Assembly: GCF_900111745.1 (NCBI RefSeq)
Contig: NZ_FOIJ01000014.1
Location: 124,001-188,000, forward strand
DNA from: Stigmatella erecta
GTDB lineage: Bacteria > Myxococcota > Myxococcia > Myxococcales > Myxococcaceae
Length of the DNA: 64,000 nt
Direction: 5' to 3'
Shown here: positions 14,861-57,641 of the stretch, one piece after another
Layout: every line of letters begins with the position of its first letter
How positions within the stretch are numbered: position 1 is the stretch's first letter
Made by a program: the position numbers and the translations under genes
The notes under the pieces: generated by a model
The model's input: the letters and a program-made list of their open reading frames with translations, nothing else
Told to the model about the DNA's origin: nothing
Databases searched by the model: none

Positions 14861-14900
14861 TACCCCATGGCAAGAAACACCGGTCAACAGGGGAGTTCCC

Positions 14901-14945
14901 GCAAAACAAATAATAAATTTCTTATACTTTGAGATTCCAATGCAT
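14901..14945 (-). promoter_or_regulatory. AT-rich candidate promoter of the PKS-NRPS operon
   Basis: This is the only strongly AT-rich patch in the left third of the window. Read on the minus strand it has TTGGAA (14935-14940) and TTATTA (14911-14916) with an 18-base spacer, about 50 bases before the chosen GTG start. It is also the reason for preferring the internal start over ATG 15031. Inference only. Confidence 0.35.
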
Positions 14946-15303
14946 TGAGTAGGGTTTGTTTCTTGTAGCACCCAATGTGTTGGAAAGGGTTGGGGACTGC
15001 CAGCGTCGCGGTTTCGCCAAATCCGATACACATCTACACATCACCCGCCACGCAATGGCCGATACACCTTCAATCCAAACGCTCTCTGCTCTTGATATGG
15101 CATTGCGAGCAGCAGTGTCACATTCGCAGAGGCTGGGTGTTCGCCTCCCCGCGCGTTGAAGGACGAGGCGCCCCGGTAATTTCTTCCTGGCTCGGGCAAG
15201 AAGTCCCCCTACGGGTAGACTCTTGATAGACCCCATGGGTTTATAGATAGTAGCCCTTGAACCGCGCGCACCGCGGGACATGCCCTCCTTCCCGGAAGCC
15301 CAC
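14946..15303. other. Intergenic region between divergent mchA and kinase genes
   Basis: About 360 bases without a convincing gene. Short open frames here lack ribosome sites and change composition along their length. It presumably carries the leader and promoter of the plus-strand kinase, but no clear -35/-10 pair or operator stood out. Confidence 0.4.
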
Positions 15304-41069: not shown

Positions 41070-42257
41070 TCAGGGGGCCGGCAGGGGCAGGCAGAGGTTG
41101 GGCGACACGGCGCCCTCGGGACCGTTCGGCTGGTCCTTGCGCCACATCTGGTTGCCCGCGAAGGTGATGATGCCGGGCATGGGCGGCGCGGCGATGGTCT
41201 GGAAGCGCCACGGGTTGAACTGCTCGCCCTTGATCTGGCCCCTGTCCTTCACCCGGTTCTTCAGGAGGCACGGCTTCGCCGTCGGATCCGCGTCCGGCAC
41301 CAGGGTGTCGTTGGCGGGATTGTACGGCGGCGTCGGATCCACCAGGTTGAAGGTGATCTCCCGCGGGGGCGCGCTCGTGCTGGCACGCAGCAGGAACACG
41401 GTGATGCCCAGGCCGCTCACCTTGGTGCCCGAGCCATCCGTGGCGTCCTGATCATCCACGAAGTAGCCGCGCGTGGACTGCTGCAGGAACGGGGGCAGCA
41501 CGCCCGGAGGCGCCCAGTTCACGTTGTACGACTCGCCCACGGGGGTGTTGTTGACGGTGGCCTTGACGGTGGTGCAGCTGGCGGGCGCGCGCAGCAGCGG
41601 CGAGCCCGGCTGGTAGTTCCAGAAGACCACCACGCTCGCGAAGCGCTTGTCGTTGGTGAAGTCCGCCACCGTGGTGGGGCTGCCGTTGGCGGTCAGGCGC
41701 TTGGCCACCGCCTCCAGGATGCCCACCGTGCTGATGCTGGCGGCCTCCTGCACGTGGCACACGCTGTTGTGGGTCACCACGGGGCGCAGCGTGACGGTGG
41801 GCAGGTAGTTGCCCCTGGGAACCTGGGCGGCGGGGCTCAGCGAGCCGGTGGGCAGCGCCGTCACGAAGTAGGGCACGGTGGAGCGGCTGGGCACGCCGTA
41901 CAGGCTCCACACCCCCAGGTCATCCGACTGGACCGGCTCTCCGGTGGGCCCGCCCGTGATGGGATCGAACGCGACGATGGAGGACTTCTGCATGGCGGAG
42001 AAGCCGTACAGCGGCCCCTGGTCCAGCAGGAACGGCGCGCAGCGGATGTCCGGGAACGGGCACCCCACCAGGTTGATGAAGAAGGCCTCCGGGTCCCACG
42101 CGAAGCCCGACAGCTGCGAGGTGGACTGGGCCGGATCGTCGTCGACGTACTCCGGCGTGGGGTAGAGGTTGGACTCGGGCGGCGGATCATCCGAGCCGCA
42201 GGCTCCCAGCAACAGCGAGCCGGCCAGAAGGGTTCCGTAACGAAGGGTTCGGTTCAT
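41070..42257 (-). CDS. Secreted lipoprotein, last gene of the cytochrome cluster
   Basis: 395 residues from ATG 42257. Signal sequence with lipobox LLLGAC, then an Asp/Pro-rich linker. The rest looks like a beta-rich secreted domain with six or more Cys (GCPFPDIRCAP, VCHVQE, ASCTTVK, PCLLK, LCLPLP) but no CXXCH. No family is recognised. It follows the multiheme cytochrome by 21 bases and ends at the strong terminator, so it probably works with the cytochromes at the cell surface. Confidence 0.75.
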   Translation of the reverse strand: MNRTLRYGTLLAGSLLLGACGSDDPPPESNLYPTPEYVDDDPAQSTSQLSGFAWDPEAFFINLVGCPFPDIRCAPFLLDQGPLYGFSAMQKSSIVAFDPITGGPTGEPVQSDDLGVWSLYGVPSRSTVPYFVTALPTGSLSPAAQVPRGNYLPTVTLRPVVTHNSVCHVQEAASISTVGILEAVAKRLTANGSPTTVADFTNDKRFASVVVFWNYQPGSPLLRAPASCTTVKATVNNTPVGESYNVNWAPPGVLPPFLQQSTRGYFVDDQDATDGSGTKVSGLGITVFLLRASTSAPPREITFNLVDPTPPYNPANDTLVPDADPTAKPCLLKNRVKDRGQIKGEQFNPWRFQTIAAPPMPGIITFAGNQMWRKDQPNGPEGAVSPNLCLPLPAP

Positions 42258-42278
42258 GGCGGGAAGGAAATCCTTCAA

Positions 42279-44210
42279 TCAGTTCGCGGGGAGGATGTGG
42301 CCCTTGGGGACGGTGTCCACGTGGCAGCTCTGGGCGCAGTTGCCGAAGCGGCTCGGCTCACCCGTGTTGGAGAACTTCACCTGGAAGTACTGGTTGTCGT
42401 GCGCCGAGGGGTGGCACGAGGCGCACACGGTGATGCTGGGCCGCAGCGCGCTCTCCCGCGTCAGGTGGCACAGGGTGCAGTCGCCCTTGTCGGAGGGGTA
42501 GCGCGGCGAGCTCATGTGAATCTTGTGCACGAAGTCCTGGGGCCGGTTGTACAGGTCGTTGTTGAACGAGTGGCACACCTTGCAGCTCTCCACGTGGTCC
42601 ACCGACAGGCCGTGGCGCAGGTTGTCCAGCGACAGCACGCCGCGGTGGCAGATCTGGCAGTTGCCCACCGCGTTCGGATAGGTGGTGCGCTCCTCCTGGC
42701 CCACCTGGAAGAAGAAGGGGTTCAGCTTCGAGGTGCGCTCGCCCATGAAGTAGCGGTTGCTCTTGATGAGGGCCACGTACGTGCCGGGCTCCGCGGTGGT
42801 GGGCAGCGTGCGGGTGACGCGCGTGGGCCACTGCATGAAGTGCTGGCCGGTGGGCAGCCGCACCGTGGCCGGCTCATCCACCAGCGCCCAGAAGAAGTCC
42901 GGCCCGAAGAACGGGGACTTCTCGGTGGGGTTGCTGCGCGGCGTCATCTTGTGCAGGGGCCCGGCGATCTGCACCGCCGGGACCATGTCGTACTCGAGCA
43001 GGGTGTCCAGGAAGGGGATCTGCGTGTAGAGCAGGCCGTTGCTCTTGCCGGTGATGGCCTCGAAGCCGCTGGGCAGCAGCTGCGCGTTGTGCAGGCGGTT
43101 GCCCTCGTTGTCGCGGATGTCCACGAAGAGGTTCATCGTCTCGCCCGGCATGTAGAACTTGCCGTTGGCGGGCTTGGAGAGCTTCAGGCGCGGATCCAGA
43201 CCGAAGCCGCACGTGGTGGGGTTGCCCGCGTCATCCGTGCACCCCGGCTCCACCTCGGAGGGCGGCACGAAGTCCACCGGGAAGTAGAACGGCTCGTCCG
43301 GCAGCTGGCTCCACGTCACGCGGATGGCGCCGGGGCCGCGCAGGTCCGGCACGTCGAAGGTCTTGAAGGGGTTGGTGCTGCCCACGAAGTCCAGGCGCAC
43401 CATGGTGCGGAACACCGGGGGCGAGGGCGGCCAGCCCGGCAGCTGCGGCGTGGGGTGCACCGCCGTGTCGCCGGGGAACTGGGGCGGCAGCACGCGCTCC
43501 ATGCGCCACATGATGCGCGAGTGGCCCGCGGACGAGGTGTCGGTGACGAACTCGGCGCGCTCGTAGCTCACCGGCGAGCCCACCACGGTGCCGTCCGCGT
43601 TGAGGATCTCGACCTTGAACCCGTCGCCCCGCACCTTGCGCCAGTCCGCGTTGTCGAAGAGCACCTGGCGCGCCCACGAGTCCTGCGTGGAGCCGGGCAC
43701 CGCGGGGATGAACTTCCACTCGTCCGACACCTGGCCCAGGTTGCTCCAGTTCAGGTTCTTGAACCGGGACTGCGTTTTGATCCACCGCACGGGCTCGGCC
43801 AGGTCCCCGGCGTTCTTGTGCGACTCCACATCCACGACGGTGTCGGTGATGGTGAACTGGTTGAGGAAGTACTTCGTGCGGCCCTGGATGCGCAGCCGCC
43901 CGGTGGGGGGCACCAGCGTGGCGGTCGGCTCGTTGAGCGGCGTGGCCAGGCTGGGGCACAGCGTGGGGTAGCTGTCCGGCACGGGCGAGTCGCCCTTGGC
44001 GCCCATCTGCCCGTCGGGCATCACCGCGCAGCCATTGAAATGCTGCAGGCTCAGGCGAATGGCCCCCGAGGCGGCTGCCTGGTAGGGGTCAAACACCTTG
44101 GCTCCCCGTCCCGAGGCATTCTCGTTGTCACTCACCGAGAGCAGATCACAACCGGCAACAGGTACCAGCAGTGCACAGAGTGCACCGGTCAGCAGAGAGG
44201 AGCGTTTCAT
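42279..44210 (-). CDS. OmcA/MtrC-like multiheme c-type cytochrome lipoprotein
   Basis: 643 residues. Lipobox LVPVAGC, a long beta-rich N-terminal part (to about 500), then a compact C-terminal heme cluster: CQICH (near 518), CKVCH (544), CTLCH (579), CASCH (598) and a CXXXCH variant CAQSCH (628), with extra His residues (HKIH, HPSAH) as distal ligands. This resembles the heme modules of OmcA/MtrC-family outer-membrane cytochromes, which have ten hemes, so it looks like a half-size relative. It is expected on the outer membrane surface as an electron carrier. Start 44210 is preferred over GTG 44216. Confidence 0.85.
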   Translation of the reverse strand: MKRSSLLTGALCALLVPVAGCDLLSVSDNENASGRGAKVFDPYQAAASGAIRLSLQHFNGCAVMPDGQMGAKGDSPVPDSYPTLCPSLATPLNEPTATLVPPTGRLRIQGRTKYFLNQFTITDTVVDVESHKNAGDLAEPVRWIKTQSRFKNLNWSNLGQVSDEWKFIPAVPGSTQDSWARQVLFDNADWRKVRGDGFKVEILNADGTVVGSPVSYERAEFVTDTSSAGHSRIMWRMERVLPPQFPGDTAVHPTPQLPGWPPSPPVFRTMVRLDFVGSTNPFKTFDVPDLRGPGAIRVTWSQLPDEPFYFPVDFVPPSEVEPGCTDDAGNPTTCGFGLDPRLKLSKPANGKFYMPGETMNLFVDIRDNEGNRLHNAQLLPSGFEAITGKSNGLLYTQIPFLDTLLEYDMVPAVQIAGPLHKMTPRSNPTEKSPFFGPDFFWALVDEPATVRLPTGQHFMQWPTRVTRTLPTTAEPGTYVALIKSNRYFMGERTSKLNPFFFQVGQEERTTYPNAVGNCQICHRGVLSLDNLRHGLSVDHVESCKVCHSFNNDLYNRPQDFVHKIHMSSPRYPSDKGDCTLCHLTRESALRPSITVCASCHPSAHDNQYFQVKFSNTGEPSRFGNCAQSCHVDTVPKGHILPAN

Positions 44211-44293
44211 GAGCACTGAGACAGCGGGCTGCGGGAGGGGAAAGGTTCAGTGAAGCGCGGGGGGCGCTGGGGAGCACGGGGCTCCCCTGCCCT

Positions 44294-45502
44294 TTACGGA
44301 ATCTTGGCGGCGTAGGCCTGGACCCAGGTGGCCAGCTCCGCGGCCTGCTCGTCGTTGAGCAGATCGTGGTAGGTGGGCATCTGGGTGCCCGGCAGCGTGG
44401 CCTCCGGGTTGCGGATCCACCGGGCCACCTCGGCGACGGGCTTGCCCACCGCGGGCTTGATGCGCTCGTGGTACTTGGCGCCCTCGCCGTGGCACAGCGC
44501 GCAGCCCAGCTGGCTGAAGAGCTTCTCGGGCCCGGCGTTGAAGTCGGCCTTCACGCGCGGCGCGGCGTCCGCGGGCAGCGTGGCCTCGGCCTTGGGCACC
44601 GACTGCAGGTAGGTGTAGAGCGCCTGCACGTCCACGTCGTCCAGGTTGCGCACGCGCACCATCGGCAGGCGCAGGGGGATGCCCTCGCGGTTGATGCCGT
44701 GCTGCAGCGCGCGGGAGAACTCTGGCACGGTGTACTTCGCCAGGCCCGTCTCCCCGAAGGTGATGTTGGTGGAGTAGATGCCGCCCTCGGGGGTGTCCAC
44801 GAACTTGAAGCCGCCCTTGAAGGCGTCCGGCCCGCGGGCCTTCGCGCCGTCCACGCCGGGCGTGTGGCACTCGGCGCACACGTAGACTTCGTTGGCCAGG
44901 TAGGCGCCGTACTCCGCCGTGGGCCCCTTGGGCGGGGCCTTGATGCCCGAGGCGGGCCAGGTGGGCAGCGGCGCCAGGCCCATGCCCAGCGCCAGCTTGC
45001 CCACCGGGGACAGCTGCGGGTTGGGCTGCACGCGCTCATCCGGCGCGAACATCTCGTCGTTGGAGCGCAGGAAGCCGATGACCGCCGACAGGTCCTCGTC
45101 GGACATGCCGAACAGCGGCATGGTCACCATGCGGTGCCCATCGCGGCGGACGCCGAAGCGGACCGCCCGGGCAATCAGCCCATCCGGCACGCCCTGGATG
45201 CCCGCGGTGGGGTGCGACGTGAGGTTCGCCGTGATGACGGCGCCAAAGGCCTTGGGCAGGTCCGGCATGACGCCGCCCGCCGCCCGGCCGCTGCTGTCCT
45301 GCACGTGGCAGTCGTAGCAGACGCTCTCGAAGATGTGCTTGCCCCGCGCGAGGCTCTGCGGGTCCGTGGCCGCGGTGAGGGGAGGCGTCGGCGCCTCGAC
45401 CGTGGCCGAGAGCTTCGAGCTGGCCACCAGGAACAACGCCACGGCCGCCACCACCACCAGCGCGACCAGTCCACCTATGCCGATCAGGATCTTTTTGACC
45501 AT
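44294..45502 (-). CDS. Membrane-anchored triheme cytochrome c
   Basis: 402 residues from ATG 45502. An N-terminal membrane anchor (KKILIGIGGLVALVVVAAV, residues 3-28), then three cytochrome c domains with CYDCH (residues 62-66), CAECH (middle) and CALCH (C-terminal third). Axial Met candidates follow each (for example RMVTMPLFGMSDEDL and GTQMPTYHDL). The build resembles triheme subunits of periplasmic dehydrogenases. It should sit on the periplasmic face of the inner membrane and pass electrons outward, probably to the multiheme lipoprotein encoded 84 bases downstream. First gene of a three-gene unit with a palindrome in its promoter. Confidence 0.88.
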   Translation of the reverse strand: MVKKILIGIGGLVALVVVAAVALFLVASSKLSATVEAPTPPLTAATDPQSLARGKHIFESVCYDCHVQDSSGRAAGGVMPDLPKAFGAVITANLTSHPTAGIQGVPDGLIARAVRFGVRRDGHRMVTMPLFGMSDEDLSAVIGFLRSNDEMFAPDERVQPNPQLSPVGKLALGMGLAPLPTWPASGIKAPPKGPTAEYGAYLANEVYVCAECHTPGVDGAKARGPDAFKGGFKFVDTPEGGIYSTNITFGETGLAKYTVPEFSRALQHGINREGIPLRLPMVRVRNLDDVDVQALYTYLQSVPKAEATLPADAAPRVKADFNAGPEKLFSQLGCALCHGEGAKYHERIKPAVGKPVAEVARWIRNPEATLPGTQMPTYHDLLNDEQAAELATWVQAYAAKIP

Positions 45503-45595
45503 ACCCTGCCCTAAAGAAGATGCGCCAAACCCGGTACCCACCGGCCCGCCGGCGGCCCTGGGCGAGTCCATGCCTCAGAACGTCGAGTTCCGGAC

Positions 45596-45653: not shown

Positions 45654-48600
45654 TCACGGCTGCTCCCGGAGCCGCAGGTGGACCTCCTGCCCGGGCACCG
45701 CCATCACCCACTGCGAGCGCTCCGCCTGGCCCTGGCAGGAGACAATCACCTGCAGCTCCTTGCTCGCCTCGATGGACAGCTTCAGGGCCGCGTCCCCGGG
45801 CAGCGCCTGGTCGCCGACCTTCACCTGGCACCCCGGCAGGGGCTCCGAGAGCAGCGTGCCGGGGGTGTTACCCGAGATCATCGGCACCTCGGGGATGGAG
45901 TGCACGTCCAGGCGGTCCTCGATCGTCATCCGGCCGAAGCGCTGCACCCGGCCCCGGAGCACCGTGGAGACGAGCACTTCCTCGGGCTGCGTCAGGCGCA
46001 GGTTGCCCTCGATGCGGTGCCCGTCGATGTAGAGGTGCTCGCCGCGCCGCAGGTTGACCACCCGGATGCCCTCCTCCGACGGCAAGAGGAAGAAGGCGGC
46101 CACGCCCGCGGCGGCCAGCAGCCCCGCCCCCACGGCCAGGGCGGCCCACAGGCGGGACGCGCGCGCGGGGGCCGCCGCGGCGGCCGGGGACACCTGGGCC
46201 AGAGGGGGGGCGGCAGGCATTGGCGCCGGAGGCGGCATTGGCGCCGGGGCGGGCGCGACCGCCGGAATGCCCATGCGCGAAGGGGCGGACTGCACGGGGA
46301 TCTGCTGGGTGGAACGCGGGACGCTCCCCTGAACGGAGGGCATCTGCGTGCTGGCGCGGGCCGGCGGCGGGGCCACCGAGGGCATGACCGTGGACGGCCG
46401 GGCCGGGGCGGGGGCCGCGGGCGGCGGGGCCGCGGCGGGCGGCATCGCCCGGATGCCCGAGCGCGTGGAGCTGCTCACCGGGGGGTGCGCCCCCGAGGCG
46501 GGCGCCACGGAGCGCATGGCGACCTGGCTGGGACGGCTGGGGCTTGCCGCCGCGGGGGCCGAGGGCCGGGCCTCGCCCCTCGAGGCGCCCGCGGGGCCCT
46601 CGGCCGGCGCGCCCTGCGGCGCGGAGGCCGGAACCGCCCGGGGACCACTGCCCGTGGGGCGCGAGGCGGTGGCCCCCGTGCCCGGCCGGGAGCCCGTCAG
46701 GTTCTGGCGCGAGCCGGAGCCCGTGCCCGAGTTGGCCACCGCCCCGGCGAGCCGCGCCGAGGACGCATCCGTGCCGCCCGCGGGGATGCGCGGGTGCGAG
46801 CCGGAGCCAGAGGAGGCCACGGCCGGGGCGTACTCGGCCAGCCGGTCCGCCAGCGTGTCCTTGAAGAACTGGGCCACCGCGGCCGGCGAGGAGTTGAGGC
46901 GGTGGTGGGCCATCACCGCCTCGATCTCCTCCCGCAGCGCCGCCGCCGAGGGCGTGCGCCGCGCGGGGTCCTTCACCAGGGCGCGCAGGATGAGGTCCGA
47001 CACGTCCTGGGGAATGCTCGGCTTGAGCTGCGAGGGCACGGGCGCAGGCTCGCGCACCACCGCGTTGAGCGAGGCCGCATCATGGTCCCGGCGGAACGGC
47101 AGCGTGCCGGTGAGCAGCTCGAAGAGCACCACGCCCAGGGCGAACACGTCGTTGCGCGCGTCCAGCGGCCGGCCCGCGGCGGCCTCCGGGGAGATGTAGG
47201 AGATCTTCCCCTTGAGCACGCCCGCCTGCGTGTGGTCCTCGCCCTGCACCTTGGCGATGCCGAAGTCGCTCAGCTTGATGGCGCCATCGAGCGAGATGAG
47301 GACGTTGTGGGGGCTCACGTCGCGGTGCACCACCGGGTGGGCATTGCCCGCCGGGTCCACGTAGCTGTGGGCGTAGTGCAGGCCCGCGGCCGTCTCCGCG
47401 ACGATGCGCAGCGCGTGCTCCATGGGCAGGGCCAGCCCCTTGCGCCGCAGGTCGTTCATCAGCCGCTTGAGGTCCGGGCCGCGCACGTACTCCATGAGGA
47501 TGTACGCCACGCCGTCGGTGACGCCCACGTCGAAGGTCTGCACGACGTTGGGGTGCGTGAGCCGCGCGTTCGCCCGGGCCTCGGCGAAGAGCATGTCCAC
47601 GAACTCAGGATTCTCGGCGAACTGCGCGAGAATCTTCTTCATCACCACGAACTTCTCGAAGCCCTTGACGCCCACCTGCTTGGCGAGGAACACCTCCGCC
47701 ATGCCGCCCTGCCCCAGCCGGCGGATGATCTGCAGCTTGCTGCCGCCGTGGGAGCTGCTGATGTCCGTGTGGTTGCCGCCGCCCGGCTGAGCCTCGGCGT
47801 TGACGGCGCCGAAGAGGAACTGGGTGAGCGCCTTGGCCTCCAGCGCCTCCACGTCCTCCAGGGGCTGGTCGGTCAGCGGCAGGCGCCCGAGCATCTGCGC
47901 CAGGTTGGGGATGTTGGCCAGCCGCGAGGCGCCGCCGCAGATGACGCACGGGCGCTCCTGGCCCTCGTTGGCGCGCAGCTGCTGGACGAAGCCCGCGGCG
48001 TGGGTGCGCTGGTGGTGCAGCTGGCCGCAGTTCTGGCACTCGTAGGGCAGCCACAGGGAGTGGACGCGCGCCGGCAGCGGCTTGCCGGACTTGGCCAGCG
48101 GGGCCATCAGCGCGGGCGGCACCCGGCAGAGCACCACCTGGGCGCCCTTGGCGGCCGTCTCCAGCACCTGCTCCAGCTTCACCACGCCCTCGAGCTCCAC
48201 CTTCGCCACGTGCGAGAAGTCGAACGCGACGCGCCCCTCCAGGCCCGAGGCCAGCCGGCGCACGTTGAGGTCGCCCCGGATGACGCTCGCCAGGGTGATG
48301 TAGGTGATGTCGTCCTGGACCGTCTTCAGGTGCGAGGGCAGATCCAGGGGCTCGGAGGCGGCCGCCAGGCGCAGGTAGCGCAGCACCACCGGATCCACGG
48401 TGCCCAGGTGCTGCCTGCGCGCGTAGTCGAAGAACTCGCTGGGAAGGTCCGCGAACTCCAGGGGCTGGGTGCACACCGGGCAGGTGTGCTCGGGGGCGCG
48501 GTTCTCGGAGATGAGCTGTGCGTCATCCACGAGGTTGATGGCGCGCAGCCGGTCCTCGCTGCACGTGCGGCAGGTGTAGGGCGCCAGCACCGACAGCACG

Positions 48601-48914
48601 CGCGAGACGCCCGAGAAGCCCTCCACCATGTTGAGCTGATCCACCACCACCGGGGGGGCGTAGACCACGTACAGGCTGATGGCGCCGTTGGGGAGCTTGG
48701 AGACGAACTCGATCCACTTGCGCACACCGAACGAGCTGATCCGGTCCACGCACCCGAGATCGACGATGACGATGCCGTTGAGGTCCGGGGAGGTGGACGA
48801 CAGCGGGAACGTCTCGTCGATGACGCCAGAAATCCGGACGTGGGAGATGTTCCCCACCCGGGATCGGCTGATGCTTGCGTTCGAACCCTGGTTCTCCACC
48901 GTCCCTACCCTCAT
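45654..48914 (-). CDS. STAS-CXXC-STAS-CXXC Ser/Thr kinase with membrane anchor
   Basis: 1086 residues. Two tandem STAS-like units come first: unit 1 (about 15-170) has VIVDLGCVDRISSFGV followed by CRTC and CPVC; unit 2 (about 195-350) has AFDFSHVAKVELEGVV followed by CQNC and CVIC. Then a complete STPK: glycine loop LGQGGMAEV (near 398), VMKK, HRDVSPHN (near 530), SDFGIAK (near 552). A Pro/Ser-rich linker of about 250 residues leads to one TM helix (near 930) and a C-terminal periplasmic beta domain. STAS domains are the substrates of RsbW kinases; the ATPase gene upstream overlaps it by 4 bases. Unit 1 keeps Ser at the usual phosphosite, unit 2 has Glu. The combination is unusual. Confidence 0.88.
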   Translation of the reverse strand: MRVGTVENQGSNASISRSRVGNISHVRISGVIDETFPLSSTSPDLNGIVIVDLGCVDRISSFGVRKWIEFVSKLPNGAISLYVVYAPPVVVDQLNMVEGFSGVSRVLSVLAPYTCRTCSEDRLRAINLVDDAQLISENRAPEHTCPVCTQPLEFADLPSEFFDYARRQHLGTVDPVVLRYLRLAAASEPLDLPSHLKTVQDDITYITLASVIRGDLNVRRLASGLEGRVAFDFSHVAKVELEGVVKLEQVLETAAKGAQVVLCRVPPALMAPLAKSGKPLPARVHSLWLPYECQNCGQLHHQRTHAAGFVQQLRANEGQERPCVICGGASRLANIPNLAQMLGRLPLTDQPLEDVEALEAKALTQFLFGAVNAEAQPGGGNHTDISSSHGGSKLQIIRRLGQGGMAEVFLAKQVGVKGFEKFVVMKKILAQFAENPEFVDMLFAEARANARLTHPNVVQTFDVGVTDGVAYILMEYVRGPDLKRLMNDLRRKGLALPMEHALRIVAETAAGLHYAHSYVDPAGNAHPVVHRDVSPHNVLISLDGAIKLSDFGIAKVQGEDHTQAGVLKGKISYISPEAAAGRPLDARNDVFALGVVLFELLTGTLPFRRDHDAASLNAVVREPAPVPSQLKPSIPQDVSDLILRALVKDPARRTPSAAALREEIEAVMAHHRLNSSPAAVAQFFKDTLADRLAEYAPAVASSGSGSHPRIPAGGTDASSARLAGAVANSGTGSGSRQNLTGSRPGTGATASRPTGSGPRAVPASAPQGAPAEGPAGASRGEARPSAPAAASPSRPSQVAMRSVAPASGAHPPVSSSTRSGIRAMPPAAAPPPAAPAPARPSTVMPSVAPPPARASTQMPSVQGSVPRSTQQIPVQSAPSRMGIPAVAPAPAPMPPPAPMPAAPPLAQVSPAAAAAPARASRLWAALAVGAGLLAAAGVAAFFLLPSEEGIRVVNLRRGEHLYIDGHRIEGNLRLTQPEEVLVSTVLRGRVQRFGRMTIEDRLDVHSIPEVPMISGNTPGTLLSEPLPGCQVKVGDQALPGDAALKLSIEASKELQVIVSCQGQAERSQWVMAVPGQEVHLRLREQP

Positions 48915-49771
48915 TCCATGCAGAACAGCAGCGATTTGGGGAGCGCGGCACGGCGGCGCGCCTCACCCAGGTCCACCGCGCACAATACCCGAGACTCCCG
49001 CCCCTGGCTCACGTGCACGGCGATGGCATCACTGTGCTCGATCATCCGCCGCAACCCCAGTCCCGCGCCTCCACCGGAGGCATTCACCTGCACCCGCTTG
49101 CCATACGAGGCCAACGCCTGCACGAACGGCCGGGGCGTGAGCCGGCCAAACCGGTCCACCGCCTCCAGATAGATGCGTCCCTCGGCCACCGACAGCGCCA
49201 GCTCGCAGGCATCCTCCGCGTCGATCTCCTTCACCTCGGTGCGCCGGTGGGCATACTTCGGCTGCCCCTGCGCGTCCACGGGCGCGTCCAGCATCGCATT
49301 GACGGCCAGCTCGTGCAGCACATCCGCCGCCAGCGTGGCCGCCGTCCGCGAGCCGCCTGCCTCCTCCACCACCATGGAGGCAGCCTCCGCCGCGTGCTGA
49401 ATGTCCACCAGGCGCCTCAGCCGCTGGCGCACCACGCTCCCCTGCTCAGGAACCAGGGAGCCCCCGCGCAGCACCGCGCCCAGCAGCATCGCCTCCCACT
49501 CCGTCGGCCCCCGCTCCGCGCCCCGGGTGGCCAGGAGCAGCGCGGGCGGCTCGCGCGACAGGAGGTCGGCGTGCGCCGGGCCCAGCAGCCCGTCGAACAG
49601 CACGAGCCTCCGGGCATGGCGCGCCGCCTCCGCCCCATCGAGGCCCGTCTGCAGGGCCACCCCGCCGCGCGCGAGCGTGGGGGCCACCTGCTCGAGCACC
49701 GTGGGCGCCAGCGAGGGGTCGGCAATCAGCAGGAGCCCGCGGGAGGGGCCCACCTGGGTCGAGGCTCTCAA
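48911..49771 (-). CDS. RsbW-like HATPase (anti-sigma/switch kinase type)
   Basis: 286 residues. Residues 1-120 look like a degenerate receiver-type domain. The C-terminal part is a GHKL ATPase: N box HELAVNAMLDA (near 155), AVDRFGRL as the G1 equivalent, and GGGAGLGLRRMIEHSDA as the G2 loop, ending without a dimerisation His box. That is the pattern of switch-protein kinases such as RsbW and RsbT, which phosphorylate STAS domains. Start is TTG at 49771, 4 bases after the TonB-receptor stop, with no strong ribosome site. Translationally coupled to the STAS-kinase gene (ATGA), which strongly suggests they interact. Confidence 0.78.
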   Translation of the reverse strand: MRASTQVGPSRGLLLIADPSLAPTVLEQVAPTLARGGVALQTGLDGAEAARHARRLVLFDGLLGPAHADLLSREPPALLLATRGAERGPTEWEAMLLGAVLRGGSLVPEQGSVVRQRLRRLVDIQHAAEAASMVVEEAGGSRTAATLAADVLHELAVNAMLDAPVDAQGQPKYAHRRTEVKEIDAEDACELALSVAEGRIYLEAVDRFGRLTPRPFVQALASYGKRVQVNASGGGAGLGLRRMIEHSDAIAVHVSQGRESRVLCAVDLGEARRRAALPKSLLFCME

Positions 49772-49775
49772 GGGG

Positions 49776-52244
49776 TTAGTAACGAAGCTTGAGTTCGCTG
49801 TAGACGCCGCGGGGCGGCGCCGGGAAGCCGTGCGACTCCTCGTACTGGGAGTCGAACAGGTTGGTGCCCAGCAGCGACACGGAGATGCCCTCGTTGATGT
49901 TCACCCCCACCCGGGCGCTGGCCGTCACGTAGTCCGGCAGCTTCACCCGGTTGACCTCGCCGGTGGCCTCCACCAGGAAGCCCGGATCGAAGCGCTGGCC
50001 CACGTACAGGGCGTACACCTCGGCGAAGCCCACCTTGCCGATGTTGGTCCGGGCGCGCGCGTACAGGCGGTGGTGCGGGGCGTAGTCGAGCTGGGCGGAC
50101 GGCCCGTCGCCATAGGGCTGGGAGCGCGCATCCAGGTACTGGTAGGCCACGTCGAACGAGGAGTTGGCGGCGGGCAGCTGCGCGGCCACCTCGGCCTCGA
50201 AGCCCACCACCTGCGCATCGCCGATGTTCTGGAACTGCGAGGTGGAGCCGAAGACGAGGTTCTGGTTAATGAAGTTCTTGGCGCGGTTGTAGAAGCCCGT
50301 GGCCGTCAGGCGCATGCGCCGGTCGAAGGCCCAGTAGTCCACCGCGGCCTCGTAGGTGTCCAGCGTCTCGGCCCGGAGGGCGGAGTTGCCCAGGAGCGTG
50401 GCCGCGTACATCTGCTGGTTGATGGCGAGCTCGGCGAGCGTGGGGGCCCGGAAGGCGCGCCCGTAGTTGGTGCGCAGCGTGAGCTCCGGCAGCGCGTGGA
50501 ACACCACGCTGGCGCGGGGCGAGAGCTGGTTGGTGCGCTCGGTCCACACCTCCTCGGGGATGAGGTACGCGTCGTAGCGCACGCCGGCGCCCAGCACCAG
50601 GCGGCTCATCGGCCGGTACTCCGCGTCCACGAAGCCGCCGAGGATGCTCTGCGTGGTGTCATCCACCGTCAGCCCCGAGAGGACGTTCTGGTTGTTGACC
50701 AGGTCGTCCTTCACGTCGCCGCCGAAGGTGACGTTGAGGTTGCCCGCGGTGAGCAGCGCGCGCGCCTCGGCGCCGTAGCGGCGGCGCTTGCCCAGCGCCG
50801 GCTCCAGCTTGCCGGTGATCATGTTCATCTGATCCACGACGCGGCGCTTGTAGAGCGTGTAGGCCTGGCCGAAGACGCGCAGGTTGTCCGACACCTGCGT
50901 GTCCACCTGGGCCGCGGCGTTGAGGTTCTGCACGTTCTCGGTGTCGCTCGGCGTGTAGTGGCACCGGCCGCAGTTGCCCACGGTGGAGATCTGCGTGCCG
51001 CCCGGACGGCCGATCTCCGCGTCGGTGAAGTCCGCGTCGAGCGCGAACGCGCCCACCTTCACCTTGCCGCTGACCTGGTGCACCTGCGAGTCCTGGTTGG
51101 TGTCCACCAGGCCCGTCTGCGGGTTGTTGAAGAGCTGCGGGCCATCCGAGCCGAAGCCGTAGTAGCTGGCCAGCGCCTCCACGGGGCCTCCGCGGCCCGC
51201 CGCCGTGGCGTTCACGCGGAAGGTGCTGTCCTGCCCCGCCAGCACGCGGCCGTCGAAGCCCACGTTGCGGCCCTCCTTGATGAGGTCCGAGGGCTGGCGC
51301 TCGATGAGGTTGATGACGCCGCTGAAGGCGTTGGAGCCGTAGAGCGAGGAGCCGGGGCCGCGAATCACTTCCACCTGCTTGAGGTTCGACAGCGGCGTCG
51401 TCTCATCCGCGTAGAACTGGCCCGTCCAGGGGTCCGTCAGCGGCCGGCCGTCCTTCAGGAGCAGCAGCCGGTTGGACAGGTAGTTGGAGCCCAGGCCGCG
51501 CGCGCTGACCGCCGCCTTGCGCATGGAGCCGCGCCGGCACTCCAGGCCGGGGAAGTACTGGATCGCCTCGCAGAGCGTGAAGGCGCCCGTGCCCTCCAGC
51601 TCCTCGGCGGGGATCCACGCCACCGTCATGGGCACGTCCTTGATGCGCTGGCGGCGCTTGGAGGCGGTCGTCACCACCGCCTCGCTCAGCAGCGCGTTCA
51701 CCGAGTCCTCGATGGAGGAGGCATCCCCGGCGGGATCCGGCAGGTCCAGGCCCGCCAGGCCCGAGGGCGGCGGCAGCGCCCGCGACGAGGCGGGATCCGC
51801 GAAGGGCGCCGTGGGGGGCACCCGGTCCTGCTGCGCGGGCTTCACCGCGGTCTGCTTGGGCGCGGGCGCGGCCACCGGGGCCGGCGGCGGCGGCACGGGG
51901 GCGGGATCCGCCAGCACGGAGTCCGGAATGGGCTCGCGCGTCCGGTAGTCGGACGGGGGCGGCACGCTGCCCGCGGCGGGCGTGGAGGACGGCGCGTCGC
52001 TGCCCGTCATCGGATCATCGGTGCCGAAATCGTCGGCCGGCGGGGCCACCACGGGCGCCGGCGGCGGCGGCGGGGCCTTCTTGGATGTCCCCGGCCGGCG
52101 CTTGGTGGGCTTCGGCTTTGTTTGTGCCTCGGCGTTGCCGGCGGCCAGGCCCATGATTACGCATACGCCAACGACCAGGGGAAACCGCAGGAACGCCCTT
52201 GCCGCGATGCGTCGCGGCCAGTCGAATACAGTCGAGTGCATCAT
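49776..52244 (-). CDS. TonB-dependent outer-membrane receptor with a CXXCH motif
   Basis: 822 residues. Signal peptide ending near AEAQ, then about 140 residues rich in Pro and Ala, then a plug domain (SEAVVTTASKRRQRIKDVP, IRGPGSSLYGSNAFSGVINLI) and a 22-strand type barrel ending LKLRY with the terminal aromatic. It is of the BtuB/siderophore receptor class. Near residue 426 it has NCGRCHYTP, a heme-c attachment motif that such barrels normally lack, lying in what should be a loop between strands. The long Pro-rich N-terminus could span the periplasm. Ligand unknown. First gene of the second half of the circuit, with about 200 bases upstream. Confidence 0.9.
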   Translation of the reverse strand: MMHSTVFDWPRRIAARAFLRFPLVVGVCVIMGLAAGNAEAQTKPKPTKRRPGTSKKAPPPPPAPVVAPPADDFGTDDPMTGSDAPSSTPAAGSVPPPSDYRTREPIPDSVLADPAPVPPPPAPVAAPAPKQTAVKPAQQDRVPPTAPFADPASSRALPPPSGLAGLDLPDPAGDASSIEDSVNALLSEAVVTTASKRRQRIKDVPMTVAWIPAEELEGTGAFTLCEAIQYFPGLECRRGSMRKAAVSARGLGSNYLSNRLLLLKDGRPLTDPWTGQFYADETTPLSNLKQVEVIRGPGSSLYGSNAFSGVINLIERQPSDLIKEGRNVGFDGRVLAGQDSTFRVNATAAGRGGPVEALASYYGFGSDGPQLFNNPQTGLVDTNQDSQVHQVSGKVKVGAFALDADFTDAEIGRPGGTQISTVGNCGRCHYTPSDTENVQNLNAAAQVDTQVSDNLRVFGQAYTLYKRRVVDQMNMITGKLEPALGKRRRYGAEARALLTAGNLNVTFGGDVKDDLVNNQNVLSGLTVDDTTQSILGGFVDAEYRPMSRLVLGAGVRYDAYLIPEEVWTERTNQLSPRASVVFHALPELTLRTNYGRAFRAPTLAELAINQQMYAATLLGNSALRAETLDTYEAAVDYWAFDRRMRLTATGFYNRAKNFINQNLVFGSTSQFQNIGDAQVVGFEAEVAAQLPAANSSFDVAYQYLDARSQPYGDGPSAQLDYAPHHRLYARARTNIGKVGFAEVYALYVGQRFDPGFLVEATGEVNRVKLPDYVTASARVGVNINEGISVSLLGTNLFDSQYEESHGFPAPPRGVYSELKLRY

Positions 52245-52350
52245 TCTCACATCCGCCAGTGGAGCAGCCAAACCGGGTGAGGCCCGTACGGCATCCGGGT
52301 GCGGGAGGAGACCCTCTGCGCCAAGGGTCCGCCCGTGAACACCCAGACTG

Positions 52351-52448: not shown

Positions 52449-53348
52449 TCAGTCGTCCGGCTGTTCGGACGAGACGTCCATCACGCTCGTGAAGGAGGGC
52501 AGCACGGGGGTGAGCTGCCCGGAGCGCACCAGCGCGTCGGTGTCCACGCGCAGCTGCGGCGACTCGACGATGGCCGGCTGGCGCGGGGCGGGCCCCTTCT
52601 GGGCCAGCTTGCGGAAGTCCTCGAACTCCTTGCCCTGCACCCGCACGAAGCCGCTGAAGGGCGCCACGGGCTCCAGCTTCGGCAGCTTCTCGGCCAGCTC
52701 GCCGGGCCGCAGGGTCACCAGCACCGCCCCCGGCACCTTGATGCTGCGGAAGAGCACGCGCACGTCCTTGGGCACGTGCGACAGCGGCACCAGCGCGGCC
52801 TCCGCCCCCTTGGCCTCCAGCATCTTCAGCGCCGACTCCACGTTGGGCACCAGGATGGGCTTGCCGAAGTGGTCCTCAGGCAGGTCTCCCCCGAAGACGA
52901 CGCGGGAGACGAACTTCGCATCCAGGCCCCCCGCGCTCCGGGTGAGCGCCAGCCGCTTGCCCTTCAGGTCCTTCACGCTCCCCTTCAGGTTGGAGATGAG
53001 GGCCCACCGCTGGGCCGTCTCCCCCGCGAGCGCGGCGAAGGCCAGGGGGGTGGCCTTCTCCTCCATCTGCACCGCGGACAGGGCATCCACCACGGCGAAG
53101 TCGACGAGCCCATCCTTGACCGCCTTGTCGAAGTCCTCGTAGCGGCCGAAGCTCTTGGCCGCCACGGGCTGCCCGAGCACGGTGCTCAGCTGCGACGCCA
53201 GCTTCTCGGCGAAGGTGAAGCGCTCCTGGCCATCGGTCAGCGTGGTGGGCAGGAACACGCCGAGCGTGGTCTTCTTCTCGGCCCACGCGGCGGGGGTCCA
53301 GGCACAGAGTACGGCCAGTCCAAGCATCAGCAAACGGGGGGTCTTCAT
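52449..53348 (-). CDS. PhnD-like periplasmic binding protein
   Basis: 299 residues. Signal peptide (cleavage near AWAEKK), then a type II periplasmic binding fold with LGVFLPTTLTDGQERFTF, GRYEDFDKAVKDGLVDFAVVDALS and GKRLALTRSAGGLDAKFVSRV, matching the PhnD/phosphate-phosphonate binding family. No ABC permease or ATPase is nearby, so it is probably a sensor or scavenging partner and not part of a transporter. Its start overlaps the TPR gene stop (ATGA). Confidence 0.85.
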   Translation of the reverse strand: MKTPRLLMLGLAVLCAWTPAAWAEKKTTLGVFLPTTLTDGQERFTFAEKLASQLSTVLGQPVAAKSFGRYEDFDKAVKDGLVDFAVVDALSAVQMEEKATPLAFAALAGETAQRWALISNLKGSVKDLKGKRLALTRSAGGLDAKFVSRVVFGGDLPEDHFGKPILVPNVESALKMLEAKGAEAALVPLSHVPKDVRVLFRSIKVPGAVLVTLRPGELAEKLPKLEPVAPFSGFVRVQGKEFEDFRKLAQKGPAPRQPAIVESPQLRVDTDALVRSGQLTPVLPSFTSVMDVSSEQPDD

Positions 53349-55858
53349 GGCAGGGTCTCCGTGGCGGTGGCCTCGTTGGCCTCGGGGGCGGCGGCGCCGC
53401 CCAGGCCGTGCAGGGCCATCAGCCGGTCACGCCACTCGCGGGCCACCGCCACGCGGGGGCCACCAGCGGTCAGGTATCGGCGGTAGGACTCCACCGCCTC
53501 GGAAACTTCACCGCGGCGCTGGGCGTCGATGCCGAGGTTGAACGAGGCCATGGGCACCGAGGCCTCCAGCTTGCGCCACACGGCCGCGGCGTCGGCGTGC
53601 TTGCGCTTGCCGTAGGTCACGCACGCGAGGTTGTGCTGCAGCGCGGCGTCCTCCTGCGCGCTGGCCAGCGCGGCCTTGAAGGCCTTCTCGGCCAGCTTGA
53701 AGTTGCCCGTGGCGTAGGCGCGCTCCCCCTCGAGCCGGTGGAGCGAGTTGGCCAGCGAGGCAATCCACTTGGCCTGCCAGGACGAGGGCTTCTTCGAGGC
53801 GGCGGCCAGCGCCTTGCGCGCGAAGGGCACCTGGCCCTTGCGGTAGAGGACGTACGCCTCCGCCAGGGCGCGCGTGTTGGGCTCGGCCCAGGTGGGCATG
53901 GGCGTCAGCGCGCGCTTGAGGAGGGGGCTGGCCTCGGCGAAGCGGCCCTGCTCGGCGTGGACGAGCGCCCGGGTGAGCAGCGCCAGCTTGGCCAGGTCCT
54001 GCTGCTTGGACAGGTTGAACTTCTCCGTCAGGTCCACGTCCTTGCGCGCGTTCTCCACGTCGCCGGTCTCCAGGCGCGTGAGCGCGCGGCGCAGCAGCAT
54101 GAGCGGCAGGTTGGCCTCCGCCAGTTGCCGGGCCGCCTTGGAGGGGCCCGGCTCGGTGAGGCGCTCCACCGCGTCATCCACGCGGCCCAGCTCCACCTCC
54201 GCGAGCGCCGCGCCCACGGACACATCCGCCAGGTCCGAGGGCTCCTCGGTGCGCTTCTCGGCCTGGATGAAGGCGCGCAGCGCGGCCTCGGCGTTGCCCT
54301 CGCCCAGGTACGCGTAGCCCAGCAGCCAGTGCTCGCGCCAGGTGGCGCCCTCCAGCGTCACGCCCTGCTCCAGCACCGGCCGGGCCTGCGCGAAGGCGCG
54401 CTGCTCCAGCAGCGCCGCGCCCAGCCTGCGGGACATGGCCGCGCTGCGCTCGAGATCGAACGCCCGGCGCAGATCCCTCACCGCGTCATCCATGCGGCTG
54501 GTGTCCGCGCGGCCCCGCGCCCGGTGCGCCAGCGCCTGGGCCAGCCAGTGCTGGGCCACCTCGTGCTGGGGCTCCACCCGGAGCGCGTTGGCGTAGTCCT
54601 CGATGGCCTGGTCCCACTGGCCGGTGGCGAAGTGGTCCGCGCCCAGCAGCACGTGGCCCAGGGCCTGCTGCGGGGCCATCTCCACGAGGCGCCGGTGCAC
54701 TTCCACCGCGCGCTGGAAGCGGCCCGCGCGGCGGTTAACGGAGCCCAGCGACGCCCACAGCTCCAGGTTGCCGCCGTCCTTCTCCAGCGCGGCCTCGAGG
54801 TACTTGATGGCCTCCTCGTTGCGCCCCTGCGCCTGCAGGGCCTTGCCCACGGCGATCTGCGCGGCCACCACGCCGGGCGCCATCTCCAGCACCTTGCGGA
54901 ACTGGGCCTCGGCCTCCTTGGGCTGCTTCTGCGCGAGCCGCACGTCGCCCAGCAGCAGGTGCGCCGAGGCGGTGCCCTCCAGCTTCACCAGCGCCAGGGC
55001 CTGCGTCTCCGCGCCCGCCACGTTGCCCTCGCGCAGGAACATCCGGCCCAGGCGCTCCTTGGGCTCCTTGGCCTGAGGGAAGCGCTCCACGAGCCCTTCC
55101 ACCAGCCGCAGCGCGTCCTCCTCCTTGCCCTCCAGCTCCAGCACGGAGGCCAGGCCCATCTGCGCGGTGACGGACTCGGGCCGTCCCTTCTGGGCCTGCT
55201 GGAAGGCCGCGCGCGCGGCGGCCACGTCCCGGCGCAGGAGCTGGCCCTGGCCGATGAGCTCGTGGATCTGGTAGTCGTTGACGGCCAGCTTCGGGGGCCG
55301 CTGCGCCAGGTACTGCTGGAACTTGGCGATGGCCAGGTCCCCGCGCCGGCCGTGCAGGTAGTACGAGCCCAGGTAGTAGTTGACGATGAGGTGCTCGGGG
55401 GCGTTGGCCTCGGACACCTTCTCCAGGAGCGGCACCGCCTCCTGGAAGCGGCGCAGCTTGAAGAACGCCACGCCCAGCGGGAACGTCAGCGCGATGTCCT
55501 CGGGGTTGGCGGCGCTCAGCACCGGCAGCTTCGCGGCGGTGCGGGCATAGTCGTTCAGCGCGTTGGCCGAGGCGCCCAGGCCCGCGCCGGCCGCGGCCGA
55601 GTTGGGATCGATGGCCAGCGCCTGCTCGAAGAGCTGGAGCGCCTTGCGGTGCTTCTCCTCCGCCTCCTTCTTGTTGCCCGAGGCGATGGCGGCGCTGGCC
55701 GCCACCTGCACGGTCTCCGCCTCCTTCACCAGGAGCTGGGACTCGGTGAGCGGCGGCGGACGGTACTGGGCGAAGGCCACCGGGCCCGAGAGCAAAGAGG
55801 AGAGGGCCAGCGCCGCGGCAAGGCGGCGCGCCGAGGGGGGTCTAGACATGCGGCTCAT
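53345..55858 (-). CDS. Exported TPR-repeat protein
   Basis: 837 residues from ATG 55858. Signal peptide (LAAALALSSLLSGPVAFAQ), then TPR-type helical repeats along the whole length, for example EEAIKYLEAALEKDGGN and AIEDYANALRVEPQ. Probably periplasmic or outer-membrane associated and a protein-interaction scaffold. It starts 13 bases after the phosphatase stop and is coupled to the PhnD-like gene. A longer open frame starting at 56032 would run through the phosphatase C-terminus and is rejected. Confidence 0.85.
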   Translation of the reverse strand: MSRMSRPPSARRLAAALALSSLLSGPVAFAQYRPPPLTESQLLVKEAETVQVAASAAIASGNKKEAEEKHRKALQLFEQALAIDPNSAAAGAGLGASANALNDYARTAAKLPVLSAANPEDIALTFPLGVAFFKLRRFQEAVPLLEKVSEANAPEHLIVNYYLGSYYLHGRRGDLAIAKFQQYLAQRPPKLAVNDYQIHELIGQGQLLRRDVAAARAAFQQAQKGRPESVTAQMGLASVLELEGKEEDALRLVEGLVERFPQAKEPKERLGRMFLREGNVAGAETQALALVKLEGTASAHLLLGDVRLAQKQPKEAEAQFRKVLEMAPGVVAAQIAVGKALQAQGRNEEAIKYLEAALEKDGGNLELWASLGSVNRRAGRFQRAVEVHRRLVEMAPQQALGHVLLGADHFATGQWDQAIEDYANALRVEPQHEVAQHWLAQALAHRARGRADTSRMDDAVRDLRRAFDLERSAAMSRRLGAALLEQRAFAQARPVLEQGVTLEGATWREHWLLGYAYLGEGNAEAALRAFIQAEKRTEEPSDLADVSVGAALAEVELGRVDDAVERLTEPGPSKAARQLAEANLPLMLLRRALTRLETGDVENARKDVDLTEKFNLSKQQDLAKLALLTRALVHAEQGRFAEASPLLKRALTPMPTWAEPNTRALAEAYVLYRKGQVPFARKALAAASKKPSSWQAKWIASLANSLHRLEGERAYATGNFKLAEKAFKAALASAQEDAALQHNLACVTYGKRKHADAAAVWRKLEASVPMASFNLGIDAQRRGEVSEAVESYRRYLTAGGPRVAVAREWRDRLMALHGLGGAAAPEANEATATETLP

Positions 55859-55871
55859 TCGGTTTCCAGGC

Positions 55872-57641
55872 TTAGGAGGCAGTGCTGAACTCGGCGACGA
55901 CGACGGTGATGTCATCGCGTTGCGGTTGACCCGCGCTGAAGGCGCGCACGTCCGCCAGGATGGCGTCGCGCAGGCCCTCGGCGGTGAGCTGGGCGTTGTT
56001 CTGGACGGCGGCGCCCAGGCGCTGGGTGCCATAGAGCTTGCCGGCCGCGTCGCGGGCCTCGGTGAGCCCGTCCGTGTACCAGACGATGATGTCGCCGGGG
56101 CGCAGCTGGGCCTGGCGCGAGGAGTACTGAGAGGACACGGAGGCGCCCAGCAGCGGCCCGCGGGCGGGCAGCGAGGCGAACTGCCCGGACAGGCGGTTGT
56201 AGACGCACGCGGCCGGGTGGCCGCCCGCCGCGTAGTCGATGAGGCCCGTGTGCACGTCGATGACGGCCAGGGCGCTGGACATCTGGTACTCGCCGCGGCC
56301 CAGGTGGGCCAGGGTGATGTTGAGCGCGCTGATGAGCACCTGGGAGTTGAGCTGATCCGGCTCGCGCATCGTCATGGCCGAGGCGAACCCGCTGGTGGCG
56401 CTGGTGGCCACCAGCGCCGTGGACAGGCCGTGGCCGGTGACATCGCCCACGCCCACCACCACGCGCTGCTCGTCCAGGGGCGCACGGAACCACCAGTCGC
56501 CGCCGCACGCATCCGCGGTGATGACGACGCCCGCCATGCGCATGGTGCCCATCTGGAAGGCCTCGCGGCCCGGCAGCAGCGTCTCCTGGACGGTGCGCGC
56601 CAGCGACACCTCGCGCTCCAGCTGCGCCTTGGAGCGCACGTCCTCCAGGAGGACCTTGATGCGCTCGGCCATGTGGTTGAACACGAGGCTCAGGGTGCGC
56701 ACCTCGCGCCCGGCGCCCGTGGCCTGGCCCGCGCGGGCGCTCAAGTCGCCCGCGGCCAGCTGCATCACCCGCCGCGTCAGCACGCCCAGGGGGCGGGTGA
56801 TGCGGCGGCTCTGGATGGCGGCCACCACGCTGGCCAGCAGCACGAAGCCCAGCCCCAGGATGAGCGCGTTGCGGATGGTGGTGCGCAGCGCCTCGTCCTT
56901 GTTGTCCTTGAGCACCTGGAGCTGGTGCTGGAGCTCGTCGAGCGAGTAGCTGATGACGATGAGCCCCTTGCCGCTCTGGGAGCCGTAGTCGAGCGGCTCC
57001 TGGAACTCGTAGACGGGCCGGTTCTTGAAGACCGCGCCCTGGATGGCCCGCTCGGCCTTGCGGCCGCCCGAGGCGGTGCCCAGCTTGGCGTCCGGATCCG
57101 AGTCGGCCACCAGGAGGCTTTCCGCGTCGAACATCTGCACGCGGAGGATGTTGCGGTTGGCCGCGATGATGGCGCGCGCCACGTCCGTCAGGAACGCGTA
57201 GTTGTTGTCGCGCAGGGACGTGGCGGAGGTGAGCGCCAGGGTGTGGCTCACCGTCTGGCCCAGCTCGCGCGCGTGGTTCTGGGTCCGCTCGGTGAAGGTG
57301 GCCGAGGCCTCCTCGAACTGGGACGTGGTGGACACCGCCGAGAGCGCCGTCAGCAGGCCGACGATGACCAGCACGAGCGCCGCGGTGGTGAACAGGAGGA
57401 TCTGATCCAGCCGCAGCCCGCGGATGGAGGCGACATCGGGCAGCTCGCCCGCCTCCAGCGGCGCCACGATGGTGCCCGTCATCTCTCCGGCCACCGGCGC
57501 GGCGACGGTCGTGCTGGTGAACTGCGCGTGCTGATGCGTGCCGGTGTGCTCGTACCGGGGGACAGTACCCGTCGCCCGGGAGGGCAGTGCCTCGGAAGCG
57601 GTGTCCTCGGGGGCAGGGGCAAGGCGTGTATTCGTCTTCAA
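55872..57641 (-). CDS. Membrane SpoIIE-type PP2C phosphatase with sensor and HAMP domains (RsbU-like)
   Basis: 589 residues. A Pro/Thr-rich N-terminal tail (1-75), TM1 ([19 protein letters not shown]), a periplasmic sensor of about 160 residues, TM2 ([18 protein letters not shown]), HAMP, a coiled linker ([17 protein letters not shown]) and the SpoIIE phosphatase domain with [24 protein letters not shown] and a terminal RDDITVVV holding the metal-binding Asp residues. RsbU-type enzymes dephosphorylate STAS-domain proteins in partner-switching pathways. It heads the unit that contains the RsbW-like ATPase and STAS-kinase genes, so it is the natural input of that circuit. Confidence 0.92.

Follow-up and report, generated by a model that had tools for sequence, protein, structure and literature searches.

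Partner switches of the SpoIIAA-SpoIIAB-SpoIIE and RsbV-RsbW-RsbU(P) type combine a STAS protein with a phosphosite Ser, a GHKL protein of the SpoIIAB fold and a SpoIIE phosphatase. The SiaABCD system of Pseudomonas is a partner switch with a SpoIIE-type phosphatase as well, and its output is a diguanylate cyclase, not a sigma factor. Here we describe a locus of the predatory soil bacterium Stigmatella erecta in which the same three components lie in one operon and in which the STAS part is fused to a Hanks Ser/Thr kinase. The locus is located in a stretch of 64,000 nucleotides (contig NZ_FOIJ01000014.1, positions 124,001 to 188,000), which was analysed as a whole and is called the window; all coordinates are positions in it, and all genes and features of the operon lie on its minus strand. 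An earlier note on this DNA dealt with the kinase gene and missed a SpoIIAB-like partner gene and a SpoIIE phosphatase gene in the same operon, which together point to partner switching. We consider it reasonably probable that the kinase protein serves such a switch both as its STAS member and as its output.

Compared with SpoIIAA-SpoIIAB-SpoIIE and RsbV-RsbW-RsbU, the STAS domain of the locus is duplicated, carries a zinc-ribbon-like tail and is fused to the kinase, the GHKL partner has a receiver-like N-terminus, envelope genes belong to the operon and no sigma factor is found among the neighbour families examined here (25 of 85). The SiaB-SiaC structure 6kko is among the structural matches of the partner, whereas the output differs from that of SiaABCD, being a fused Ser/Thr kinase here, with GGDEF domains only in some relatives (L064, L065, L066). 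STAS domains of the RsbR-RsbS-RsbT stressosome are among the best structural matches of the second STAS copy, but the gene order of the window operon includes no separate RsbR, RsbS or RsbT genes. LvrC of Leptospira (9qih), described as a receiver with a Bergerat/RsbW-like domain (PMC13269768), resembles the partner with Z 10.5; unlike in LvrC, the receiver-like part of the partner looks degenerate by eye, and its usual phosphoacceptor column is apparently unconserved. Fusions of STAS (COG1366) to eukaryotic-like kinases were mentioned in 2010 for Sorangium cellulosum, and the section of that source on these fusions describes no zinc-ribbon tail, duplication or operon (PMC2887360). STAS-kinase fusions are therefore already known, while we recognised no earlier account of the STAS-zinc-ribbon unit or of the operon in the literature covered, which included few subscription papers; a mention in the kinome study of Perez 2008 is possible. 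MasABK, as presented in the relevant part of PMC3546991, was rejected as the same system because it is a different kinase operon.

Results

STAS-zinc-ribbon units of the kinase protein

The kinase gene (45654..48914) encodes a protein of 1086 amino acids that consists, according to its open reading frame (ORF), its Pfam matches and its relatives, of two STAS-zinc-ribbon units, a Hanks Ser/Thr kinase domain, a transmembrane segment and a C-terminal tail. Unit 1 comprises residues 18-162 (48429..48863) and unit 2 residues 196-342 (47889..48329), each with a STAS domain and two CxxC pairs. A hidden Markov model of the unit places the two domains at residues 21-158 and 201-336, and the profiles of copy 1 and copy 2 are homologous (hhalign probability 99.8, E 7e-28). 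The STAS family PF01740, with a cut-off of 22.6 bits, is matched in two stretches with 27.1 bits in the whole protein and 30.7 bits in residues 1-377; scanned alone, the single window units stay below the cut-off. The two STAS-like units that the earlier note had proposed are thus borne out.

The structure model of the N-terminus has a mean predicted local distance difference test score (pLDDT) of 61.9, with copy 1 weak and copy 2 fair. Foldseek returned STAS domains for it with a probability of up to 1.00 and an E-value of only ~0.01, with some unrelated rows interspersed. In VIA-align, copy 2 (residues ~190-361) matched the stressosome 7b0u (Z 10.7, root mean square deviation 3.5 over 104), TM1442 (Z 10.4, 2.8 over 99), RsbS 6jhk (Z 10.4, 3.4 over 104) and SpoIIAA (Z 9.8, 3.4 over 106), and anti-sigma antagonists were also among the best rows; a family missing from the VIA-align rows, for the unit and the partner models alike, is not thereby excluded. 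Structure prediction hence bears out the STAS fold for copy 2, while for copy 1, which was modelled too poorly, the fold rests on homology.

In the STAS-only profile, Ser61 of copy 1 (codon 48732..48734) aligns without gaps with the Ser of the D-S-x-G motif of TM1442 and with the matching Ser of 4hyl, which is the SpoIIAA-type phosphosite position. This column holds Ser in 51/51 copy-1 rows and in 30/30 rows of alignment A3, so that the Ser already noticed in copy 1 is invariant here; the preceding residue is Ser or Thr, not Asp, in 50 of the 51 copy-1 rows. Among 50 copy-2 rows the same column holds Pro 34 times, Leu 9, Ala 3, Asp 2, Ser once and Glu once, and among 10 rows of single units Ser 8 times, Ala once and a gap once. 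These 51, 50 and 10 rows, which all differ in sequence, come from the window and from 60 loci, for the most part of one family. Alignments A3 (30 units) and A4 (22) are without single units or second copies of ~110 residues or less and without most close relatives, and they omit L041_4950, a unit with Ala that was probably copy 2 of a two-copy gene now broken; L077, with units lacking the Ser, stands outside A3, A4 and the counted rows.

Copy 2 had been read as a built-in phosphomimic with Glu at the phosphosite, a call that was off by one: the window reads K-V-E240-L241-E242-G, where Leu241 occupies the site and is flanked by glutamates. With Pro in 34/50 copy-2 rows and Glu in a single one, the phosphomimic was rejected, and copy 2 is, as judged from its residues, a phospho-dead copy. 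The presence of Ser in this column of copy 1 and its loss in copy 2 suggest that copy 1 could be phosphorylated there and copy 2 could not.

The CxxC pairs lie at residues 115-118 and 145-148 in copy 1 and at 293-296 and 323-326 in copy 2, with an equal step of 30 residues (CxxC-x26-CxxC), which agrees with the spacing given earlier. All four Cys are conserved in 51/51 copy-1 rows and in 48-49 of 50 copy-2 rows, one of which is gapped there; in the single-unit rows, the first pair is present in 10/10 and the second in 9/10, and the remaining row comes from an ORF that is cut short. By the alignments, this conservation appears to be beyond chance. Matches to zinc-ribbon families are weak (Zn_ribbon_8 in 10/30 units at E<=0.1), and we infer that each CxxC-CxxC pair may form a structural zinc ribbon. 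Zinc ribbons on kinases are mentioned in passing for other systems (PMC7159879).

The kinase domain (residues 395-660, 46935..47732) matches PF00069 with E 1.4e-41 and contains the HRD and DFG motifs, which identifies it as a Hanks Ser/Thr kinase, as had been claimed from an ORF whose coordinates and strand were correct. The gene has a G+C content at third codon positions (GC3) of 0.96, as expected for a coding sequence. A transmembrane segment is predicted at residues ~926-944 (46083..46139, hydropathy 2.34), which supports the membrane anchor noted before, but not its C-terminal position, since 142 presumably periplasmic residues follow (45657..46082). A Pfam scan of this tail (residues 948-1086) at E<=0.01 gave zero matches. 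At 10 loci from named records, identity over the N-terminal 377 residues is 65-85%; of the named records, Hyalangium versicolor comes closest (85% over residues 1-372). The source genome encodes a single protein of the STAS-zinc-ribbon/kinase type.

Partner protein and operon

Directly upstream of the kinase gene, with a 4-base ATGA overlap, lies the gene of the partner (48911..49771), a protein of 286 amino acids with a receiver-like part and a GHKL ATPase part of the SpoIIAB-RsbW fold. The window protein had no Pfam match and no usable PHROGs or NCBIfam family (one NCBIfam match, E 0.006, was far below the cut-off). Seven distant relatives were scanned, with four weak matches to HATPase_c or HATPase_c_2 below the cut-off, one of them plus Response_reg. 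The structure model (mean pLDDT 66.3) matched SpoIIAB in Foldseek with E 2e-6, and the first 12 VIA-align rows were all SpoIIAB, UsfX, RsbW, SiaB, Rv1364c, LvrC or SigF-anti-sigma structures, with Z from 12.8 to 10.4 and the next row at 6.7. SpoIIAB has an E-x3-N box with the catalytic Glu; in the partner, E154, N158, D206, G209, G235, G237, L238 and G239 are invariant in 13/13 rows. Alignment and fold together characterise the partner as a predicted GHKL kinase of the SpoIIAB/RsbW fold. Partner and unit are found in one open frame, as natural fusions, in L061, L062 and L063.

Further upstream on the same strand are a TonB-dependent receptor (49776..52271; PF00593 E 3.2e-39, PF07715 E 9.2e-19), a PhnD-like periplasmic binding protein (52449..53348; PF12974 E 2.3e-10), a TPR protein with a signal-peptide-like start (53345..55858, start codon inferred and taken at 55858) and a membrane SpoIIE-type PP2C phosphatase (55872..57641; PF07228 E 9.7e-39, PF00672 E 1.5e-8) with two transmembrane segments (at 81 and 259), HAMP and PP2C. 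In the order SpoIIE, TPR, PhnD-like, TonB receptor, partner and kinase, the genes are separated by 13, -4, 177, 4 and -4 bases and presumably form one transcript. The phosphatase is the only SpoIIE match of the source genome at E<=1e-8. In Myxococcus xanthus, a single SpoIIE-like phosphatase with HAMP, mxan4562, is described in PMC2887360. MXAN_4559, a TonB receptor, was found in outer-membrane vesicles (PMC4158809) and is included in a set of predicted beta-barrels (PMC3222651). Going by the published annotations, this fits the operon order, and the M. xanthus locus is probably MXAN_4557-4562.

Outside the window, the source genome has two STAS matches together with its two best HATPase_c_2 matches, in what resembles a classical RsbR/S/T-type cluster (G000:C25:35844-38605). 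Within the window, genes for cytochrome c and multihaem-like proteins follow the kinase gene on the same strand (41070-45571); a link to them was rejected because the relatives listed have different genes after the kinase. Two very long ORFs (2797 and 2213 amino acids) at 3-15031 look by eye like nonribosomal peptide synthetase genes.

Distribution in Myxococcota

We surveyed 195 Myxococcota genomes of 90 genera with thresholds of E<=1e-6 for the unit and E<=1e-8 for the partner, the partner profile being built from genes beside units and the genomes being searched by sequence only. Among the matches listed, the unit occurs in 76/195 and the partner in 77/195 genomes, each in 25/90 genera; 71 genomes have both, 82 have either and 113 neither. 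The unit alone was found in G091, G092, G093, G185 and G188, and the partner alone in G080, G083, G115, G133, G186 and G187. The Fisher value of this co-occurrence, 1.7e-39, ignores relatedness and is not usable as a probability. At least 75 of the 91 partner matches, which include fragments, have a unit within 3 kb, compared without most second-copy rows, and 73 of those lie on the same strand; of the remaining 16, at least 4 touch a contig end (G012, G080, G115, G133). Counts of adjacency are lower bounds where they rest on the G+C-based gene caller, which missed the SpoIIE of the window and the units in L051, L055, L061 and L068 that a six-frame search found.

In the family of the window (96 genomes, presumably Myxococcaceae), 57/113 SpoIIE matches have a partner gene no more than 10 kb away, in every case on the same strand, and they come from 57 of the 65 partner-bearing genomes; 42/96 genomes of the family have a sole SpoIIE match. 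The order TPR, PhnD-like, TonB, partner and kinase, or the fetched part of it, recurs in loci of Hyalangium, Myxococcus, Pyxidicoccus and Archangium, where the gene caller missed the PhnD-like gene of L006. The same order is seen in L007, from a record named Comamonas sp. KCTC 72670, with a kinase N-terminus 68% identical to that of the window; the name of the record is probably wrong. In another class of the phylum, genome G016 (L084) has the order TPR, PhnD-like, partner, standalone unit, SpoIIE and TonB, with similarity to the window proteins of 3e-18 (TPR), 6e-12 (PhnD-like), 2e-59 (SpoIIE) and 2e-18 (TonB) and profile matches of E 8e-109 for the partner and E 3e-55 for the unit; no kinase was called within the 14 kb fetched.

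Three genomes of one genus, G091, G092 and G093, keep the kinase beside counterparts (82-88% identical) of the two E1 dehydrogenase-type genes that border the operon in the window, and the block of SpoIIE, TPR, PhnD, TonB and partner is absent between kinase and E1 genes. The partner was not found anywhere in these genomes, and their only SpoIIE match is weak and lies elsewhere. G094, of the same genus, retains all six genes (L083), and the block loss counts as one event. The kinase of the three genomes reads SFGVS for SFGVR and HCD for HRD; it need not be dead, because HCD keeps the catalytic Asp. In G185, where the partner is absent, the units lack the phosphosite Ser, which fits co-loss.

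The set of PhnD, STAS, SpoIIE and GHKL recurs outside Myxococcota on a plasmid of Sphaerotilus sulfidivorans (L087:673-4751), which encodes a PAS-SpoIIE protein that matches the partner in its C-terminal part; the gene adjoins a STAS-PhnD fusion without a CxxC tail. In the plasmid searches, the standalone unit of L043 and the binding protein of the window gave zero matches, and the partner of L043 gave this one.

Other outputs and arrangements

The GHKL domain of the partner is fused to GGDEF and PilZ in L064 (3568-6264) and L065 (2586-7985) and to PilZ and TPR in L070 (862-5433) and L071 (6062-10624), giving proteins of 898-1799 amino acids. In L066 a unit has a GGDEF gene as its neighbour, and histidine kinases adjoin in L041 and L043. 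Fusions of units to kinases occur outside the class of the window in L042, L043, L047, L049 and L058. The 66 immediate neighbours of 100-1200 residues that were scanned matched 85 Pfam families, among them PAS_4 (7), SpoIIE (6), PilZ (5) and Response_reg (4). Since fusions and neighbours vary, the module appears to be coupled to several different outputs. In L045:3403-8555 and L046:2-5153, the kinase comes first and two units follow, beside a second two-unit protein without kinase. A single-unit protein is found next to a PilZ gene in L060:3697-5734; for the single-unit proteins of L052:3064-5123 and L069:3761-5804, the PilZ neighbour is recognised by similar starts only.

Discussion

From the observed domains, folds, gene order, co-occurrence, fusions and residue conservation, we infer the following reactions, together with their direction of control, signal and metal. 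The receiver-like/GHKL partner would bind STAS copy 1 and phosphorylate Ser61, upon which copy 1 would be released. The membrane SpoIIE phosphatase would remove the phosphate and restore binding, informed by the PhnD-like binding protein, the TPR protein and the TonB receptor or, alternatively, by a periplasmic loop of its own. Whether copy 1 is bound or free would determine how active the fused Hanks kinase is, and the phospho-dead copy 2 probably helps assembly.

In classical sigma control, the GHKL protein would be an anti-sigma factor with the STAS units as its antagonist, and the kinase domain would serve as an anchor or a side branch. The SpoIIAB/RsbW fold of the partner speaks for this, as does LvrC, a receiver with the same fold, for which a function as anti-sigma factor is proposed (PMC13269768). 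However, a sigma-factor family does not occur among the 25 most frequent of the 85 Pfam families in the 66 immediate neighbours, and other outputs recur, namely the kinase fused to the units and GGDEF and PilZ fused to the partner. We therefore regard sigma control as rather unlikely.

It is also unlikely that the Hanks kinase regulates itself in cis by phosphorylating Ser61, and perhaps the partner too, with the STAS units mainly as a dimerisation platform. Kinase and STAS are indeed in one chain, HRD and DFG are present, the Archangium paralogue L011 has no adjoining partner, and in G091-G093 the Ser persists although the kinase has neither a partner nor an operon phosphatase. On the other hand, Ser-bearing standalone units without a kinase domain adjoin the partner in L050, L059, L066 and L067. 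That the CxxC pairs sense metal or redox state and thereby switch the kinase, a possibility raised in the earlier note, is quite improbable: the four conserved Cys per unit and the weak Zn_ribbon_8 matches would suit it, but a structural zinc site fits better because the Cys are equally kept in the phospho-dead copy 2, where a role in folding would explain them.

Several observations weigh against partner switching as proposed here. In the family, 56/113 SpoIIE matches have no partner within 10 kb; outside it, in the genomes searched, the same is true of 19/25 SpoIIE matches, whereas the other 6 have one that close. Eight partner-bearing genomes of the family have no SpoIIE within 10 kb (G067, G080, G083, G099, G111, G115, G120, G139), and the STAS/GHKL cluster on contig 25 of the source genome, apparently separate, might use the sole SpoIIE of that genome. 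G091-G093 lost partner and phosphatase and yet keep the phosphosite Ser and the kinase, so that the partner as sole user of this Ser is not favoured; likewise, G188 has a Ser-bearing unit and its partner was not found. Model confidence for copy 1 is low, and most alignment rows are close relatives, so their counts are not independent.

As a more general proposal, we suggest that the STAS-zinc-ribbon unit, which is only partly matched by Pfam, forms together with GHKL and SpoIIE proteins a module of several Myxococcota classes, and that in the family of the window an envelope assembly feeds the switch and the fused Hanks kinase is its output; we see this proposal as evenly balanced. To our knowledge, most eukaryotic-like kinases of M. 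xanthus and S. cellulosum are without a known input. Their numbers are given as 96 and 315, respectively, in the part of PMC2887360 that counts them. If partner switching controls the kinase, Ser/Thr-kinase signalling and partner switching would be joined in one chain, which suggests that a switch whose usual targets are transcription factors is here connected to a kinase. The input pathway of one eukaryotic-like kinase, with phosphosite, writer, eraser and possible envelope sensors, would then be readable from the genome. This would also suggest a role for the SpoIIE phosphatase that is the sole match in 42 of the 96 genomes of the family, presumably including mxan4562 of M. xanthus.

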